Below, piece after piece: positions 1,232-59,359 of a stretch of DNA of 64,000 nucleotides. The translations under genes and the position numbers were made by a program. Position 1 is the first letter of the stretch. Every line of letters starts with the position of its first letter. The DNA comes from Coriobacteriia bacterium (GTDB taxonomy: Bacteria; Actinomycetota; Coriobacteriia; Anaerosomatales; Anaerosomataceae). The DNA lies in contig JAUSBK010000013.1 of the NCBI GenBank assembly GCA_030652115.1, positions 62,001 through 126,000 on the forward strand. Direction: 5' to 3'. The notes below the pieces were generated by a model. The model was not told where the DNA came from and ran no database searches. It saw only the letters and a list, made by a program, of their open reading frames with translations.

Positions 1232-3417
1232 TGGCCGTTGCGCGCATGCTCAAGGTCACGGTGCTCGCCCATCGTTCAGTGATGGACGACCTCGTGGCCC
1301 GCATGCAGCGAGCGGGGGTGCTCGAGATCGAGAGCCAGCCCGCCGAACTCCCGGCTGTTGAGGTCGCTGCCGACGATGAGCGGCTGCGCCGACTCGAGGA
1401 ATACTTCGCATACGCGACTTTCGTGCGCGACTTTCTCGCGTCCTTCCACACCTCGGACCGCCCCTTCGGCGCATTCGTGTCCGAGAAGATCCATCTGAAT
1501 ACTGCCGAGTACGAGGCGATGCAGGCCGACTCCACGTTCCTGCAGGTCTACCGCGAGTGCGAGGCGATCTCCTCCCAGACCGCCACGCTCGAGCGAGAGC
1601 GCGCACGGCTCAAGTCGCTCGCCGACGATCTACTTCCGTGGGAGTCGCTGCACCTGCAGATCTCGCGGTGGAGCGGCACCGAGCATGTGGTGCTTTTCAC
1701 TGGCATCGTGCCATCGGCCGAAGGTCCGGCCGTACGCCAGGCGCTGCGCGAGGTGACGCCCGACGTGACCGTCGAAGAGCTGCAGTCGGTACGCGGCAGG
1801 GCCGCGTGGGTCGTGATGGCGCACTGCTCGACGCTCGACGAGGTACAGGCGGCGCTGGCACTTACGAGCTTCCAGGAGGTTTCGTTCCCCGGGCTCGAGG
1901 ACTCGCCGGCCGAGGAGCGCGCGATCGCGCTCGCTCGCGTCGAGGAGATCGGCGAGGAGCTGGAGCTGCTCGCCGCGTCGGCATACACGCTCGCCGAAGC
2001 ACACTACGAGCAATCGGTGGCCCTCGTTGAAGCGGTCGGCTCCGATATCGATGCCGTTCGCGTACGGGAGCACTTCGGCAAGACCGATTGCACCTTCGTG
2101 GTGAGCGGCTGGGTGCGGGCGTCGCGGCGAGAGGAGCTTGAGGCGGCACTGGCGCCGCTCGGCACAGAGGTCGACGTCACGCTCCAGGAGCCGGCCGAAG
2201 ACGACAACCCGCCGGTCGAACTCGACAACCCGCGGTTCATCCGCCCGTTCGAGGTTCTGACCGACCTGTACGGCCTGCCCCGCTACGACGAGATAGACCC
2301 CACGCCGCTCCTCGCGCCGTTCTTCCTGGCGTTCTTCGGGATCTGTGTCGGCGATGTCGGCTACGGGCTCATGCTCATCGCGGGTGCCTGGTACATCAAG
2401 AACAAGGTCGACGTGGCCCCCGGGGTCAAGCGGTTCATGGACCTGCTGATGGTGGGCGGCGGTGGAGCCATGGTGATGGGCGTGCTGTTCGGCTCATACT
2501 TCGCGCTGGACTTCTCTGTGATCCAGAAGTACGCGCCGCCGCTCGCTGCGCTGCGGGTCCTCGATCCGCTCGACCAATTGCCGACGTTCCTCATCATCAC
2601 CATCGCGCTCGGCATCACACAGGTCACCTTCGGCGTGCTGCTCGCCACATACGATCTCGCACGCCGCGGCGACCGGGCCGCCGCGTTCTTCGACCAGTTC
2701 TCCACGGTACTGCTCTTCGTCGCCATCGCCGTGGCGGTAGCAGTCCCCTCGCTCACGCTCCCGGCAATCGTGATCGGCGTTGCCGGGACGGCCGTCTTCA
2801 AGGGCCGTGCACTCCAGGCAGCGATGGGTTCGACCGACGTGCCGGTGTGGGACCGGGCGCTCGGGGGTGCGTGGCTTGCGCTGGTAGTAGGTGCGCTCAC
2901 CGGCTGGGCGTTCGGGCTGAGCCTGCCGCTGGGGTGGGCGGTCCTCGCGCTTACGGTCGTGGGACTCGCCATCTCGAAGACGACGCGGCGCACCCTGGTC
3001 GCGTTGCTCGGCGGCCTGTACGCGGTTTACGGGATGTCGGCGTTCATCGGCGACATCCTCTCCTATACCCGGCTGGCAGCGCTCGGTCTGTCCGGCGCGC
3101 TGGTCGGCATGGTGTTCAACACCATGGCGGGCATGGTCATTGAGGGTGCCGGAGGGCTGTTCGAAAGCGGCGGCACGGGTATCATCGGCGGCATCGTGGT
3201 CGTGGTCCTCGGCTCTCTGGTCTTTGTGGTCGGCCACATCTTCAACGTGGTCATCAACCTGCTCGGCGCGTTCGTACACCCGGCGCGTCTGCAGTTCGTC
3301 GAGTTCTTCAGCAAGTTCTACCAGGGCGGGGGGCGGATCCACCGCCCGTTCGCGAAGAGGACGAAGTCACTCGTGTTGCATGCCGGCGAAGCCCGGCAGA
3401 AAGGAGCGGGATCGTGA
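1231..3417 (+). CDS. atpI: V-type ATPase subunit I (stator, subunit a homologue)
   Basis: A 728-residue protein of the usual length for subunit I. Roughly the first 360 residues are a soluble helical domain that contacts the peripheral stalks. The C-terminal half has about seven or eight membrane segments, starting near LAPFFLAFFGICVGDVGYG, and includes the motif FIGDILSYTRLAALGLSGAL. In this family the Arg of the SYTRL motif faces the proteolipid Glu during ion translocation. The GTG start overlaps the stop of the preceding gene by one base, and its TGA overlaps the start of the proteolipid gene (GTGA). The protein forms the static half of the ion channel. Confidence 0.95.
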   Translation: MAVARMLKVTVLAHRSVMDDLVARMQRAGVLEIESQPAELPAVEVAADDERLRRLEEYFAYATFVRDFLASFHTSDRPFGAFVSEKIHLNTAEYEAMQADSTFLQVYRECEAISSQTATLERERARLKSLADDLLPWESLHLQISRWSGTEHVVLFTGIVPSAEGPAVRQALREVTPDVTVEELQSVRGRAAWVVMAHCSTLDEVQAALALTSFQEVSFPGLEDSPAEERAIALARVEEIGEELELLAASAYTLAEAHYEQSVALVEAVGSDIDAVRVREHFGKTDCTFVVSGWVRASRREELEAALAPLGTEVDVTLQEPAEDDNPPVELDNPRFIRPFEVLTDLYGLPRYDEIDPTPLLAPFFLAFFGICVGDVGYGLMLIAGAWYIKNKVDVAPGVKRFMDLLMVGGGGAMVMGVLFGSYFALDFSVIQKYAPPLAALRVLDPLDQLPTFLIITIALGITQVTFGVLLATYDLARRGDRAAAFFDQFSTVLLFVAIAVAVAVPSLTLPAIVIGVAGTAVFKGRALQAAMGSTDVPVWDRALGGAWLALVVGALTGWAFGLSLPLGWAVLALTVVGLAISKTTRRTLVALLGGLYAVYGMSAFIGDILSYTRLAALGLSGALVGMVFNTMAGMVIEGAGGLFESGGTGIIGGIVVVVLGSLVFVVGHIFNVVINLLGAFVHPARLQFVEFFSKFYQGGGRIHRPFAKRTKSLVLHAGEARQKGAGS

Positions 3418-3926: not shown

Positions 3927-4508
3927 GTGGCGATCACCGATATCCTCACCCGCATCGAGACGGATGCAGCGGCCGAGGCGGCTGATGTCCTCGGCGCGGC
4001 GCAGGCCGAGTCAGCGCGCATCATCGCGCAGGCCGAAGCGGCGCTTGACGCAGAGCGGGTAGCGGCGATTGCCGCAGCCGAGCACGATGCCGCTGAAGAG
4101 GCGGCGACGCTACTCGCGAACGCGCGCCTCCGTGTACGCGATGATCTTCTCGGCCGCAAGCGTGCTCTTGCGGAGCGCGTGCTCGACCGCGCTCGCGGCC
4201 AGCTCGAGGCGCTGCCGGATAGCGAGTACCTCGAGATGATCGCTGCAGGGGTGGCGAAGGCGGCGACCGGTGGAGGCACGCTTGCTGTGGCCGCTGCGGA
4301 CGCCAAGCGTCTCGCAGGGCTCCCGGCGCGGCTCGATGCGGCTGGCGTACGCGTCACGCCCGCGTCCGACCCCGCGCCGCTCGACCATGGCGTGCTCGTC
4401 ACCGGCGATCGCGTGCGGCAAGAGATCTCCCCGGCCGCGCTCATCGCAGATCACCGCGACAGCTTGCTGTTGGTTGCCGCACGATCGCTCTTCGGCGGAG
4501 AGGAGTAG
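3927..4508 (+). CDS. atpE: V-type ATPase subunit E
   Basis: A 193-residue protein whose N-terminal half is a long Ala/Glu/Arg-rich helix (for example AAEAADVLGAAQAESARIIAQA, shown in part) and whose C-terminal half is a small globular domain ending in AARSLFGGEE. This is the architecture of subunit E, which joins subunit G/H in the peripheral stalk that holds the A3B3 head. The GTG start at 3927 follows GGGGCGCTCA, ten bases after the proteolipid stop. Its position between K and C matches the conserved archaeal and bacterial V-type operon order. Confidence 0.88.
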   Translation: MAITDILTRIETDAAAEAADVLGAAQAESARIIAQAEAALDAERVAAIAAAEHDAAEEAATLLANARLRVRDDLLGRKRALAERVLDRARGQLEALPDSEYLEMIAAGVAKAATGGGTLAVAAADAKRLAGLPARLDAAGVRVTPASDPAPLDHGVLVTGDRVRQEISPAALIADHRDSLLLVAARSLFGGEE

Positions 4509-53912: not shown

Positions 53913-55769
53913 CTACACGACTCCCGCCAGGTGCAGCCGCTCGAGCGTCTCGGTTGTGGGGAGCCCCGACTTCAGGTCCCAACCCATCGCTGTGTAGAAG
54001 CTGTCGAGCGCCTTGTCGAGGTCCACGACCTGCCCGGCGCCACGTCCGTCTGCGGCCGGTTCGCTCAGGAGCCGCTTTGGCAGCGTGTCGTCCGAGCGAT
54101 CGAAGCCGAACTTGGCGTTGATCAGGCGCTCGAGGTCGATGACCCGCTCGGCGGAACGGAGCAGGTCCTCCTTCGTCCACACCTCACCTGTGGCCGCGGT
54201 GAGCAGCTTGGCCCAGGTGGACGGCTGCACGGCGAGCGTGATGACCGTGAACAGGCACACGCCCAGCTGATTGGTGGCCATCGAGAGCTCCATGAAGGGC
54301 TTCACCCAGGCCTTGTTGCCGTCATCGAGGAAGTCGACGTCTTCGGTGATACCGAGTTCCTCATTGCGGTAGGCAAACGCGTCCACGACCGATGCATACG
54401 GACGCAGATGGTCAGCGCCGCGTGGCGACACCGCGTGGCTGACCGCCTCGCCCTTGCTCCCGGCAACGCCGCAGCTTGCGAGTTCGAGGCCCTTGACCTC
54501 CATCACGTACTTGCCGGCATCGCCGCCGATCTTCTCAGCAGCGCGCCTCGAGCCCTCGGCAAGCGTAGCGCCGAAGCCCTCGCGAAACGCCATCTGGCGG
54601 AGCACCTCGGGGAAGATCGTCCCGTTGCCCCACGTGTATTCGAGACCGCCGGTATCGCTGGCCGTGATAATGCCCCGGTCCCACCACTCCATCGCGATCG
54701 CGATCACCTGTCCGGCCGAGATGGTGTCCATGCCGAGGTCGTTGCACACGTAGCTCGCCTTGGCGATGGCGTTCACGTCGTCGACGAGGCACTTCGAGCC
54801 GAAGGCGCCGAGCGTCTCGTACTCGGGTCCGCCACCGCTTTCGCCGGCCCATTCGCCTGAAGTGATGGTCGTCTTGCGGCCGCACGCCACCGGGCAGCCC
54901 GAGCACGCGTACGGCTTCACGTCGAGGGTCGTGTGGTACGCTGCGTGGCCGATCTTGTCGATCGACTCCGGCCACTCCTGGCGCTGCCAGTTCTTCGTAG
55001 GCAGCAGTCCGAGCGCGCTGATCGAGTCGTAGAAGCTCGGCGTGCCGTAAGGCTTGAGTTCGTCTTTCACGAACTCCTCGGACAGCAGCTCCTCGCGCGC
55101 CGCCTTGGCGATCTCCTTGAGTCCCTCGAGGTCGGCCAACGGGAGGTCCTTGGTCCCACGGACGGCCATCGCCTTCAGGTTCTTCGAGCCCATGGCTGCG
55201 CCGCCGCCACCGCGGCCAGCTGCGCGCTCCTTGTCGGTGACTACGCAGCTGAACGCCACGCCGTTCTCGCCGGCGGGGCCGATCGAGGCGAGCTGCCAGC
55301 CCTTGCCGTCGAGCGTGGCTTTGAGCGTGTCCTCGGTCTCGCGAACTCCCTTGCCCCACAACTCCGGGGCATCCACGATCCGCACGTCATCGTCATCGAT
55401 CACCACGTAGACCGGGCTGCTCGCCTTGCCTACGAACGCCACAAGGTCATAGCCGGCCTTCTTGATGGGCGGGGAGAGCTGGCCGCCCACGTTGGCCAGG
55501 CCGAGGCCGCCGCTGGTGTACGAGTGGAAGACGAGCACCGTGCGCCCCGAAGACGGCGCCTGCGTGCCGGTCAGGGGGCCGACCGCGAAGATCACGGGCT
55601 GCGACGGCGCGAGCGGGTCGGCGCCGTAGTCGGCAAGATCGTTGAACAGGCGCACGCCAGTGCCCTCACCACCGACGTAGTCGCGGAACCACTCGTCCGG
55701 GATCGGCCGACGCTCGACCTCCCGCTTTGTGAGATCGACGATGAGTGCTACACCCCAGTTACCCTTCAT
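53913..55769 (-). CDS. aor: Aldehyde:ferredoxin oxidoreductase (tungsten or molybdenum pterin enzyme)
   Basis: A 618-residue AOR of normal length. The N-terminal domain has VDLTKREVERRP and YVGGEGTGVRLF. The [4Fe-4S] ligands are Cys289, Cys292 and Cys296 in CSGCPVACG, with the fourth Cys in LGVCLFTV near the C-terminus. The bis-pterin binding region contains GRGGGGAAMGSKNLKA. These enzymes oxidise aldehydes to acids and reduce ferredoxin, and usually use tungsten. In an amino-acid fermenter it would handle aldehydes from 2-oxo acids. GGAGGAG precedes the ATG at 55769. The tandem RNA elements lie upstream but on the other strand. Confidence 0.93.
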   Translation of the reverse strand: MKGNWGVALIVDLTKREVERRPIPDEWFRDYVGGEGTGVRLFNDLADYGADPLAPSQPVIFAVGPLTGTQAPSSGRTVLVFHSYTSGGLGLANVGGQLSPPIKKAGYDLVAFVGKASSPVYVVIDDDDVRIVDAPELWGKGVRETEDTLKATLDGKGWQLASIGPAGENGVAFSCVVTDKERAAGRGGGGAAMGSKNLKAMAVRGTKDLPLADLEGLKEIAKAAREELLSEEFVKDELKPYGTPSFYDSISALGLLPTKNWQRQEWPESIDKIGHAAYHTTLDVKPYACSGCPVACGRKTTITSGEWAGESGGGPEYETLGAFGSKCLVDDVNAIAKASYVCNDLGMDTISAGQVIAIAMEWWDRGIITASDTGGLEYTWGNGTIFPEVLRQMAFREGFGATLAEGSRRAAEKIGGDAGKYVMEVKGLELASCGVAGSKGEAVSHAVSPRGADHLRPYASVVDAFAYRNEELGITEDVDFLDDGNKAWVKPFMELSMATNQLGVCLFTVITLAVQPSTWAKLLTAATGEVWTKEDLLRSAERVIDLERLINAKFGFDRSDDTLPKRLLSEPAADGRGAGQVVDLDKALDSFYTAMGWDLKSGLPTTETLERLHLAGVV

Positions 55770-56039
55770 CGCTCCTCCGATCCTCAGACCAGCCGACAGT
55801 CCGCACACCGCCCCGGATGGGGTGGTGGTGTGACCGCAGTCCGCGGCGACGGAGGCCCGTGCGGAGGCGCACGAGAACCGGGGTCGTGAACGCCGACCGG
55901 CCGGGGTCAGACGCCGCTATGCAGTCCATACCCATGTTCATGCATGCTTGTGCCGATGTTCACGAGCGAATGTGATGCGCTCGCGATGACGCCGCGCATC
56001 GTGTTGACCGTCCTTGAGAGCAGGAGTAGCGTGATAGCT
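55770..56039. other. Noncoding region between AOR and the first RNA element
   Basis: About 270 bases without a convincing gene. It must hold the AOR promoter (minus) and the promoter of the RNA elements (plus), but I see no clear pair of hexamers. The words GTTCATGCATGC and CGATGTTCACGAG near 55935-55965 are partly repeated and may be regulatory. Confidence 0.35.
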
Positions 56040-56138
56040 GTCTCCGAGCGTTGCGACCTACGGGAGCAAGAGCTCCACGGTCGCAGGGCCGATAGGGTCA
56101 GCAGGGAAACCGGCTGGCCTCCCGCTTGGAAAGGAGAT
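56040..56138 (+). promoter_or_regulatory. Riboswitch-like structured RNA, copy 1 (Moco/tungsten-cofactor type?)
   Basis: P1 pairs GTCTCC (56040-56045) with GGAGAT (56133-56138). Inside lie GCGACC...GGTCGC with a nested GGAGC-AAGA-GCTCC hairpin, then GCCGATAGG, then GGTCAGC...GCTGGCC capped by GG-GAAA-CC (a GNRA loop), then CCTCCCGCTTGGAAAGG. The same core recurs at 56425-56523 with compensating base changes. The conserved words recall the Moco RNA motif, but I cannot confirm that without a covariance search. Confidence 0.65.
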
Positions 56139-56142
56139 CGCA

Positions 56143-56190
56143 GGAGCGCCCCCGGCGCTCCGGATTCGCCTTTCCCGCGCGGGGAAGGCG
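56143..56190 (+). terminator. Expression platform of RNA copy 1
   Basis: GGAGCGC (56143-56149) pairs with GCGCTCC (56155-56161). Then CGCCTTTCCC (56167-56176) pairs with GGGGAAGGCG (56181-56190), followed by TTCTGCTT. The second hairpin looks like a terminator. Confidence 0.6.
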
Positions 56191-56424
56191 TTCTGCTTCC
56201 CTGAACGGGATTGTCGGCATCGCCCGGGAGACGTGGTGGTGCTGGTTGCGCCTGCAACCGCGCCGCCCCGCTCCCTGCGGCGGCAGGACGGCCGGGTCCG
56301 CCGTCGCGTCATGAGGGGGCCTCGCTCACGCGGGGCCCCCTTCTCCTGCCCGGAGCACGTCGGCTCACGCGGCGAAGTCCGCCCGCGGCATTGACCGAGT
56401 CGGCCGCCGGTAGTAGGGTCAAAC
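56191..56424. other. Spacer between the two RNA copies, with further hairpins
   Basis: GGTTGC-GCCT-GCAACC (56244-56259) and GGGGGCC...GGCCCCC (56315-56340, followed by TTCTCC) are hairpins; the second may be another terminator. No gene is seen. The presence of a terminator here suggests copy 2 may have its own promoter; TTGACC at 56391-56396 is a -35 candidate. Confidence 0.4.
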
Positions 56425-56523
56425 GGTCTCCGAGCGCTGCGACCTACAGGAACCAACCCAGGGTCGTAGAGCCGATAGGGTCAGACGTGGAAACGCTCTG
56501 GCCTCCCGTTTGGAAAGGGGACC
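56425..56523 (+). promoter_or_regulatory. Riboswitch-like structured RNA, copy 2
   Basis: P1 pairs GGTCTCC (56425-56431) with GGGGACC (56517-56523). GCGACC pairs with GGTCGT, GGTCAGA with TCTGGCC, and the cap is CGT-GGAA-ACG. Compared with copy 1, paired positions change together (C-G to A-U in the GGTCAG stem) while CCGATAGGGTCAG and TTGGAAAGG stay fixed. This is what selection on RNA structure produces. Confidence 0.65.
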
Positions 56524-56550
56524 CACAGGGGCGCGTTGTGCCCCGGTCTG

Positions 56551-56581
56551 CCTTTCCCGACGCGGGAAGGGCTTTCCTTTT
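56551..56581 (+). terminator. Intrinsic terminator of RNA copy 2
   Basis: CCTTTCCCG (56551-56559) pairs with CGGGAAGG (56563-56570, one bulged T), followed by GCTTTCCTTTT. It sits about 90 bases before the GEGP gene, where it could control that gene. Confidence 0.65.
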
Positions 56582-56673
56582 CCCGCTCGGGCGCGTTGGC
56601 GCGCACCCGGAGACCCTCCGCGGAGGAGGTGGCTTGCGATCGGCTGCTGCCGGTCTGGGGAAGGGGGCGCACT

Positions 56674-58140
56674 ATGCGCAAACGTTGGGCTGTGTTCGGC
56701 GTGCTGGCGATCGTGATGTCGGTGGGGGCGATCGCGGTGCTCGCGCCGGGTGCCGAGGCGGCGTATCACCATGCGGGCGAGATGGACTCGGACTACTTCC
56801 TGGTGGCACATCCCGAAGCGGCAGGTACGAAGCTCGACTCCTGCACGCTGTGCCACTGCGGCGGGAAGGTCGGCAAGGCGGCACTCGGCACGTGCGAGTG
56901 GTGTCACTACACGTATGGGTACGATGCGCACGGCGACATCCTCAAGACGCTCAACCCGTACGGCAAGGCCTACCACGATGCCGGCAGCGACACCAACGCG
57001 GTCGTGGCTATCGAGGCGCTTGACTCGGACGGTGACGGCTACAGCAACATCGACGAGATCGCGGCGATCCGCTATCCGGGTGATGCGGACGACGACCCGA
57101 CCAAAGTCGAGGCGCCGTACAAGGTCTACACGCTCGCCGAGGTCGAAGCGATGCCGTCGCAGACGCAGTTCCAGCTCATGAACACGCACAAGTCGGGCGA
57201 CTACTACGCTGAGTACACAGGCGTGCCCATGGAGTACGTCCTCGGCGACGCCGGTATGCTGCCGTCGGCGATCGGAATCCAGGTACTCGCCGCCGACGGC
57301 TTCGGCGTGACGCATCCGCTCGATCCCACGACGGGCTTTTACCACGTCCGGGGCATCTACCCACAGTCGACGTTCTACTGGGATGCCGAGGCGGACAAAG
57401 CGTCGAACCCGGCGTACGGCTGGTGCGATTACAGTGCGGCTTCGGTCGCCGGGCGCGTCAACGGCGACCCGATCCCGGTCGAGGGCGGGGCGCGGCTGCT
57501 GCTTGCGTACAAGTACGAGGGCGAGTACCTTGCGCCGGGCGCTCTCAATGCGAGCGGCAAGCTCGACGGTGAGGGTCCGTTCCGCGTGGTACCGCCGCAG
57601 CGCGTCCCCGGTCCTCCGGACCAGTCGTCGACGTCGCTCATCCAGGACGTGATCTGGCCGTTCGACCAGCTCGAGCTCACGACCGACCACAACGCGGGCT
57701 TCTCGTCGAAGTGCGTCACGGTCGTGAAAGTAGAGCCGCTACCTGCGGGCACGACCGATATCGACACACTCGAAGCCGGCTGGGAGTACGTCCGCGATGG
57801 CAAGGTCGTCGTGTATGGCGCCATCGACCCGATCCCGACGGTGCTTGCCAAGACCGCCGACCTGCAGGACTTCGTGTACACGCTCGAGCGCGGGGACCTG
57901 CGCGGGAAGAACATGGACGTCGCGTATGCGAAGAAGCTGGACGTCCTTCTCAGGCAGATCGACAGCGGCGCGATCACCGGCGCCGAGGAAAAGATCGTGA
58001 ACGACCTGCTGCCGAAGGTCGATGGCGTGGTCGAGACCGGTGAGCCGGACGGGGACGACTGGGTCATGGACCCCATCGCCCAGCGCCGCATCTACTGGTC
58101 GCTTCAGGAGCTGCTCGTTTTGCTCGCGATCGACGCCTAG
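56674..58140 (+). CDS. GEGP-motif dihaem cytochrome
   Basis: A 488-residue exported protein with signal peptide ending near GAEAA. Two haem sites lie close together: CTLCH (57-61) and CEWCH (74-78). A calcium-loop-like stretch DSDGDGYSN follows. The large remaining domain contains GMLPSAIGIQVLAADGFG and the motif GEGPFRVVPPQ, known from GEGP-type dihaem proteins. It resembles the molybdopterin-binding fold of sulfite oxidase, though no Cys ligand for molybdenum is evident. GAAGGGGG precedes the ATG at 56674. Its leader carries the tandem RNA elements. Role: probably electron transfer outside the membrane. Confidence 0.82.
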   Translation: MRKRWAVFGVLAIVMSVGAIAVLAPGAEAAYHHAGEMDSDYFLVAHPEAAGTKLDSCTLCHCGGKVGKAALGTCEWCHYTYGYDAHGDILKTLNPYGKAYHDAGSDTNAVVAIEALDSDGDGYSNIDEIAAIRYPGDADDDPTKVEAPYKVYTLAEVEAMPSQTQFQLMNTHKSGDYYAEYTGVPMEYVLGDAGMLPSAIGIQVLAADGFGVTHPLDPTTGFYHVRGIYPQSTFYWDAEADKASNPAYGWCDYSAASVAGRVNGDPIPVEGGARLLLAYKYEGEYLAPGALNASGKLDGEGPFRVVPPQRVPGPPDQSSTSLIQDVIWPFDQLELTTDHNAGFSSKCVTVVKVEPLPAGTTDIDTLEAGWEYVRDGKVVVYGAIDPIPTVLAKTADLQDFVYTLERGDLRGKNMDVAYAKKLDVLLRQIDSGAITGAEEKIVNDLLPKVDGVVETGEPDGDDWVMDPIAQRRIYWSLQELLVLLAIDA

Positions 58141-58291: not shown

Positions 58292-59359
58292 ATGACCGCG
58301 AAGGCCACCGTCACCGTCGACCTCGCCAAGGTCACCGAGAACACGCGCCGCGTGGTCGATGCGCTCGGCGGACGCGGTGTCTACGGCGTCACGAAGGTGA
58401 CGTGCGGTTCTCCCGAAGTCGCGCGCGCGATGCTCGCCGGCGGCGCTGCAGGCATCGCCGACTCCCGGCTCGAGAACGTCGCGCGCATGCGTGAGGCGGG
58501 CGTGATCGCCGAGTTCTGGTCGCTCCGCGCTCCGGGCCTTGCGCGTGCCGAGGAAGCCGTGCGCCTCATCGATGTCTCGCTCGAGAGCGAGATCGAGACG
58601 GTGCGGGCGCTCGATGCTGCGGCGCGCGCGCTCGGCAAGCGGCACCGCATCGTGGCGATGGTGGACCTCGGTGATCTGCGCGAGGGCATGATGCCCGCCG
58701 ATCTGCCCGCGTTCCTCGATGTAGCCGAGGGCCTGCCGAACATCGAGGTTCACGGCATCGGCACGAGCCTCACCTGCTACGGCGCGATCGTGCCGGATGC
58801 GGAGAACCTCGGCGAACTGGTGACGCTTACACGGACTGCAGAAGCCCAGCTTGGTCGGCGCCTTCACGTGAGCGGCGGCATGTCGAGCTCGCTCGATGCG
58901 CTCGTGGACGGCATTCTGCCCGAGCGCATAGACAGTCTGCGTATCGGCGAGTCGATCCTGCTCGGCGTCTCGACGGTCACGCGCGAGCCGATTCTCGGTC
59001 TCCACACTGACGCGATCATCCTGAGCGCGCCGGTGATCGAATGTCTGCGGAAGCCGTCGGTGCCGCGCGGCACGAGCGCACAAGACGCGTTCGGGCAGCG
59101 GCCGGTCTTCCTCGACCAGGGCGAGCGCCTGCGCGCGATCCTCGCGATGGGGCGGCAGGACGTGGTGCCCGAGGGCATCGTGCCGGTCGATCGGCGCGTA
59201 CGCGTGCTCGGCGCATCGAGTGACCACCTCGTGCTCGACGTGGAGGATCTGCCCGCGCCACTGCGTCTGGGTGACGCGATCGCCTTCGTGCCCAACTATG
59301 CCGCCACGCTTGCGGCGTTCACGTCGCCGTATGTAGAGAAGTGTTTCCTCGGCGGGTAG
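58292..59359 (+). CDS. orr: Ornithine racemase (alanine racemase-like PLP enzyme)
   Basis: A 355-residue fold-type III PLP enzyme. Lys35 in VYGVTKVTCGS is the Schiff-base lysine, and HGIGTSLTCYG and HVSGGMSSSLDALVDG are typical of the Orr branch. It makes D-ornithine from L-ornithine for OraSE. A specific Orr rather than alanine racemase is favoured by the presence of oraS, oraE, ord and ortAB in the same window. GAGGAG precedes the ATG at 58292. The gene stands alone between hairpins, about 5 kb from the aminomutase genes. Confidence 0.88.
   Translation: MTAKATVTVDLAKVTENTRRVVDALGGRGVYGVTKVTCGSPEVARAMLAGGAAGIADSRLENVARMREAGVIAEFWSLRAPGLARAEEAVRLIDVSLESEIETVRALDAAARALGKRHRIVAMVDLGDLREGMMPADLPAFLDVAEGLPNIEVHGIGTSLTCYGAIVPDAENLGELVTLTRTAEAQLGRRLHVSGGMSSSLDALVDGILPERIDSLRIGESILLGVSTVTREPILGLHTDAIILSAPVIECLRKPSVPRGTSAQDAFGQRPVFLDQGERLRAILAMGRQDVVPEGIVPVDRRVRVLGASSDHLVLDVEDLPAPLRLGDAIAFVPNYAATLAAFTSPYVEKCFLGG

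Follow-up and report, generated by a model that had tools for sequence, protein, structure and literature searches.

Two riboswitches of the family RF01055 (Moco/tungsten cofactor), designated RS1 and RS2, both lacking the P3 stem, stand in series before the gene of a GEGP motif-containing dihaem protein in the window, i.e., the whole 64 kb stretch of Coriobacteriia DNA analyzed here. On balance, we consider it probable that they are tungsten-cofactor sensors, each with its own promoter and each working as an OFF attenuator, RS2 on the dihaem gene and RS1 on a transcript carrying a further conserved RNA, element 2. Serial P3-less copies with terminators are already known in kind; what is added here is a description of the expression platform, the finding that the two units are likely to be independent, a further RNA, and a pointer to the cofactor of the dihaem protein. 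The features discussed below are as follows.

53913..55769, minus strand: aldehyde:ferredoxin oxidoreductase (AOR) gene, divergent, not 3′ of the riboswitches (PF01314 2e-122, PF02730 2.6e-69)
56004..56032, plus strand: promoter-like TTGACC-N17-TAGCGT for RS1, ending 7 nt before P1 (sequence, pattern)
56030..56152, plus strand: RS1, P3-less RF01055 Moco/tungsten-cofactor riboswitch aptamer (Rfam, 63.6 bits)
56128..56201, plus strand: RS1 expression platform (terminator scan, platform comparison of five copies)
56128-56134, plus strand: RS1 strand 1, GGAAAGG
56167-56190, plus strand: RS1 terminator-like hairpin
56169-56175, plus strand: RS1 strand 2, CCTTTCC
56181-56188, plus strand: RS1 strand 3, GGGGAAGG
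56196-56201, plus strand: RS1 strand 4, CTTCCC
56206..56310, plus strand: element 2, conserved structured RNA between the riboswitches (conservation, folding, model R1)
56313..56342, plus strand: T2, 13-pair GC-rich hairpin with pyrimidine tail, closing the RS1 unit (putative terminator)
56391..56419, plus strand: promoter-like TTGACC-N17-TAGGGT for RS2 (sequence, pattern)
56416..56536, plus strand: RS2, P3-less RF01055 riboswitch aptamer (Rfam, 64.1 bits)
56512..56584, plus strand: RS2 expression platform (terminator scan, platform comparison of five copies)
56512-56518, 56551-56557, 56564-56570 and 56579-56584, plus strand: RS2 strands 1, 2, 3 and 4
56550-56572, plus strand: RS2 terminator-like hairpin
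56674..58140, plus strand: GEGP motif-containing dihaem protein, 488 aa (NF041762, 418.6 bits)
58292..59359, plus strand: orr, ornithine racemase-like, next after the dihaem gene (PF01168; NF040742, 352 bits, below the cut-off of 480)

Class and probable ligand of RS1 and RS2

A preliminary description of this DNA, made from the letters alone, had placed two copies of an RNA at 56040-56138 and 56425-56523, noted that they share fixed core words, likened these to the Moco RNA motif, and proposed a covariance search against RF01055. This search, run over the 64 kb window with a gathering cut-off of 36 bits, names the class: both copies score far above the cut-off (E-values of 4.1e-13 for RS1 and 5.9e-13 for RS2, 64 kb scanned), and the RF01055 spans include both of the proposed intervals. 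The cmscan alignments run end to end through model positions 1-135 of 135, with the GAAA tetraloop in P4 and the core words of the family present in RS1 and RS2. A new RNA class, the alternative that had been named, is thereby excluded for the two copies. The covariation claimed for the stems holds in part: a C-G pair of P4 in RS1 is replaced on both sides by A-U in RS2 (GGTCAGC/GCTGGCC vs. GGTCAGA/TCTGGCC), while the changes in the six-pair core of P1 are one-sided only (G-U to G-C and U-A to U-G).

The P3 stem is missing in both copies, and a direct GCC-GAUAGGG junction is found instead (GCCGAUAGGG in both). The genome of origin has four RF01055 copies, all without P3. In the neighborhood, the family is found in 56 of 61 genomes, including this one, and a regular expression finds P3 missing in 41 of 42 copies from loci of the order, some of which repeat; the exception is a G332 copy with a short P3-like hairpin. 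Regulski 2008 (PMC2408646) reports P3 to be missing in 58 of 176 RNAs and associates the P3-less form with the tungsten cofactor. Most likely, RS1 and RS2 also sense the tungsten cofactor, as judged from their P3-less sequences.

In this genome, RF01055 stands before cofactor-related genes at two other places. The third copy precedes a tupA-like gene (TupA, 198 bits, under its cut-off of 400) followed by genes for an ABC permease, an ATPase with a TOBE domain, MobA/FdhD, MobB, MoaA, and MoaC; moeA in this cluster is assigned by eye only. The fourth precedes a formate dehydrogenase gene whose two halves are split by an in-frame TGA, probably a selenocysteine codon. This TGA lies at L005 9407-9409, where selenocysteine is expected, and the N-terminal half has a long insertion. 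A palindrome resembling a regulator site, TTGTAAC-CATT-GTTACAA, is located immediately 5′ of the formate dehydrogenase riboswitch (L005 7498-7515).

It is rather unlikely that the P3-less copies answer to Moco or to both cofactors, the absence of P3 being no mark of tungsten specificity. In favor of it, the specificity of P3-less RNAs was deduced from gene neighborhoods, and removing P3 from the RNA of E. coli led to a loss of regulation and not to a switch of specificity, according to the same paper (PMC2408646); furthermore, a MOT1-type molybdate transporter gene is found 5′ of tupA in this genome. Against it stand a tupA-like gene and an AOR gene, both present in this genome, and the nearly uniform loss of P3 across the order.

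Multiple copies in one locus occur elsewhere in the data. In L091 (G340), two RF01055 copies at 2138-3083, 815 nt apart, each precede their own gene, the first for a lipoprotein-like and the second for a TupA-like protein, the latter by eye. L092 (G341) has three copies within 4.4 kb, at 4291, 5147, and 8538.

Expression platforms and probable transcription units

Each copy had been described as followed by a terminator-like hairpin. Indeed, a simple terminator scan returns four overlapping matches at exactly these two places, where 0.5 are expected. Folded alone, the hairpins of RS1 and RS2 are unexceptional for GC-rich DNA (z of -1.21 and -1.31); both have short U tracts, and neither is a terminator of unusual stability. 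Five related copies were compared, i.e., RS1, RS2, and those of L007, G306, and G348, where L007 is a metagenome-assembled locus taken as genome G312, with which its layout agrees. Each of the five has GGAAAGG at the 3′ edge of its aptamer, and all of this strand can pair with CCTTTCC, a strand that also serves as 5′ arm of the terminator-like hairpin; the 3′ arm can pair with a CTTCCC-type strand further downstream. The pairing amounts to 7/7 for strands 1:2, 7-9 pairs for 2:3, and 5-6 of 6 for 3:4. By sequence complementarity, the five copies thus have a four-strand attenuator, in which 1:2 plus 3:4 is set against 2:3. Resampled platforms contain CCTTTCC, taken alone, in 4-9% of cases; being related, the five copies are not independent.

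The pairing suggests how the switch would operate. When ligand is absent, strand 1 (GGAAAGG) would pair with strand 2 (CCUUUCC) and strand 3 with strand 4, and RNA polymerase would read on. When ligand closes P1, strand 1 would be held in the aptamer core, strand 2 would be left to form a terminator with strand 3, and transcription would stop. Since P1 closure removes strand 1, ligand should therefore cause termination, and the platforms predict RS1 and RS2 to be OFF switches acting by transcription attenuation. Constrained ON/OFF energies of the five copies calculated without ligand are -89.2/-88.1, -77.4/-70.7, -89.4/-79.2, -82.0/-76.9, and -76.2/-61.1 kcal/mol, i.e., with the helices enforced, the antiterminator state is lower than P1 plus terminator, by a margin of about 1 to 15 kcal/mol, the gap of RS1 being only about 1 kcal/mol. 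For the gene of a putative cofactor-using protein, an ON switch would be the more intuitive arrangement; in that case, the bound aptamer would block the 2:3 hairpin, and the dihaem protein would be made when the cofactor is present. Such a switch would suit a protein of this kind, but the antiterminator takes up the 3′ side of P1 as well as strand 1, so that P1 closure frees strand 2, and we regard the ON direction as quite unlikely. The pair agrees with the Moco/Tuco RNAs, as far as they are described in PMC2408646, in the full-length match, the core, the GAAA of P4, the P3-less subtype, and the hairpin after the aptamer, and differs from that description in its GEGP dihaem target and in the four-strand platform spelled out here.

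Promoter-like sites are found before both riboswitches. TTGAC-N18-TANNNT lies 9-10 nt 5′ of the TCCGA core word in four of the five copies, namely RS1, RS2, L007, and G306, and no match to it is present upstream of the riboswitch in G348. This pattern matches a fraction of 0.0003 of resampled upstream stretches; among 49 distinct riboswitches examined, it is found in 11, in six of these further upstream (18-24 nt). Judged from these sites, RS1 and RS2 look like two serial promoter-riboswitch-terminator units. Each riboswitch would start from its own promoter; RS2 would control the dihaem gene and probably also orr behind it, and RS1 would control a transcript carrying element 2 and ending, at least in part, at T2.

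Alternatively, transcription may start only before RS1 and run through both riboswitches as one long leader, so that the response would be steeper and pseudo-cooperative. Such pairs have been read in this way in the literature, both in S. wolfei and for tandem Wco RNAs: in S. wolfei, three P3-less copies in series are reported, with terminators after the first two (Regulski 2008, PMC2408646), and tandem Moco and Wco riboswitches are listed in a 2022 review (PMC9481103). The present copies share with them, as described there, the serial order on one strand and the terminators in between, and as members of one class, on the same strand, with a terminator after each, they would fit one leader as well. 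They differ in having a promoter-like site for each copy, including one immediately 5′ of RS2, and an extra conserved RNA with the hairpin T2 between the copies, and the pair seems to be assembled from two sequence lines, each of which occurs alone (G306, L007, G348). These features argue against one leader, which we hold to be rather unlikely, and in favor of two units.

The two lines can be traced in other genomes. RS1 is 90-91% identical to the copies of L007 and G306, RS2 is 91% identical to that of G348, and RS1 and RS2 are 80% identical to each other. A recent tandem duplication is unlikely: the pair is probably not of this origin because RS2 is nearer to the dihaem-gene copy of a distant genome than to RS1. 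L007 has only one riboswitch before the dihaem gene, and it belongs to the RS1 line; in G306, an RS1-line copy precedes orr, and the dihaem gene is absent; in G348, an RS2-line copy precedes the dihaem gene in unrelated surroundings. The simplest reading of these few genomes is that the pair was assembled from two cassettes.

Element 2 and the AOR side of the locus

Versions of element 2 occur in G312 (82% identity) and G306 (80%). It folds better than shuffled sequence in the window (z -2.80, 3 of 200 shuffles as good) and in L007 (z -3.13, 1 of 200), and in a six-pair stem chosen by eye, four pairs differ on both sides among the three sequences. A search against Rfam gives no match up to the gathering score. 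Model R1, built from the three element 2 sequences, matches strongly (143-159 bits) only in those three of the 69 genomes of the order, and elsewhere matches weakly (<32 bits) in eight further genomes; by regular expression, no riboswitch is present in the seven weak loci checked. T2 is not among the matches of the simple terminator scan, and termination there would rest on its 13 GC-rich pairs and pyrimidine tail. Element 2 is a candidate for a second attenuator together with T2, or for the body of a riboswitch-gated small RNA.

Two other roles were considered. A coding sequence is disfavored, as the versions of the window and L007 have lengths that differ by 2 nt within the stem region, and this argues against a conserved peptide. 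A GGCCGG motif common to element 2 and the AOR leader prompted the idea of a small RNA pairing with that leader; this is not supported, since the predicted duplexes are no better than those with resampled leaders, of which 71, 228, and 198 of 300 are equal or better.

The preliminary description was right that AOR, identified by PF02730 and PF01314, adjoins the pair; as a refinement, the gene is divergent and downstream of neither riboswitch. AOR as a riboswitch target is not supported, given this orientation and the other AOR loci without a riboswitch. AOR and orr are divergent in G296, a genome of the same genus, and no riboswitch match is present in the 3 kb locus; by regular expression, none is found in the seven other AOR loci L133-L139, G296 among them. 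Of the remaining AOR matches, at least those of G306 and G312 have a riboswitch beside them. A 27-nt block, GCGGCGNNYGACCCCGGCCGGYCGGCG, lies upstream of AOR (window 55891-55917, minus-strand reading) and recurs at G306:C1:982923-982949, G312:C54:115959-115985, and G296:C1:279724-279750. It has no mismatch in three genomes and two mismatches in the fourth, G296, where neither riboswitch nor element 2 accompanies it; it may belong to the promoter or leader of AOR.

The dihaem protein and its Oxidored_molyb relatives

The gene behind RS2 had been taken for a GEGP dihaem gene, with a possible pterin-type fold in its product; the first point holds, and the second is supported. The protein exceeds the curated NF041762 cut-off of 300 bits, has two CxxCH sites (CTLCH and CEWCH) and an invariant cysteine, Cys251, and begins, by eye, with a signal peptide-like sequence. 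Residues 149-385 align to the Oxidored_molyb-containing family A8 with an hhalign probability of 99.0 and an E-value of 6.1e-18. In a direct comparison with PF00174, the protein scores 11.2 bits (cut-off of 24; E 0.28); against PDB, no match is better than E 0.12, and a structure model from three sequences is unusable (mean pLDDT 32.7). The protein resembles SorAB and PF00174 proteins in combining an Oxidored_molyb-like domain with haem, and differs from them in lying below the PF00174 cut-off with no confident PDB chain; cofactor binding is putative.

The dihaem gene is found above the cut-off in 4 of the 69 genomes of the order, with a riboswitch directly 5′ in three of these four. In G329, no riboswitch lies upstream of it, and a copy is located about 1 kb downstream, before the gene for a 4Fe-4S protein. 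A fifth relative, L008, recorded as Desulfatirhabdium, has no riboswitch in its 5.5 kb contig. Between RS2 and the gene, the leader at window 56600-56673 contains a CCTCCGCGGAGGAGG-type hairpin, which appears to be conserved in both L007 and G348. The GEGP dihaem family was not found named under that title in the literature searched.

More distant relatives are found elsewhere in the phylum. Weak matches to the NF041762 model lead to nine loci (L011-L016, L018, L019, and L022) whose proteins exceed the PF00174 cut-off. These double-domain Oxidored_molyb relatives have an RF01055 match in eight of the nine loci of roughly 3 kb each, L013 being the miss, and the same scan gives 8 with a match among all 20 loci covered. 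This group, the family A8 to which the dihaem protein aligns, matches structures of SorA, a sulfite:cytochrome c oxidoreductase, with E of about 4e-6. In L011, L014, L015, L018, L019, and L022, which come from other families of the phylum, divergent Moco/Tuco RNA pairs flank the start of the double Oxidored_molyb genes; in some cases (L029 and L038), the facing gene encodes Oxidored_molyb plus DUF5719.

Among the possible exceptions given by Regulski 2008 (PMC2408646) are P3-less RNAs that precede genes for putative sulfite oxidases in S. wolfei. The eight of nine loci suggest, from gene neighborhood, that this link between the riboswitches and sulfite oxidase-type proteins recurs in another phylum. 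In the literature searched, “Oxidored_molyb” and “riboswitch” were not found together. A bolder proposal, to which we give little probability, is that the exported Oxidored_molyb-fold proteins, i.e., the GEGP dihaem protein and the double-domain relatives, are tungstopterin proteins and that RS1 gates element 2 as a second regulator or as a small RNA.

The locus thus offers element 2 as a small candidate RNA, and its neighborhood points to the GEGP dihaem protein as a putative part of a tungsten-cofactor system. For the family, the riboswitch is an independent reason to expect that GEGP dihaem proteins use or serve a tungsten (or molybdenum) cofactor.
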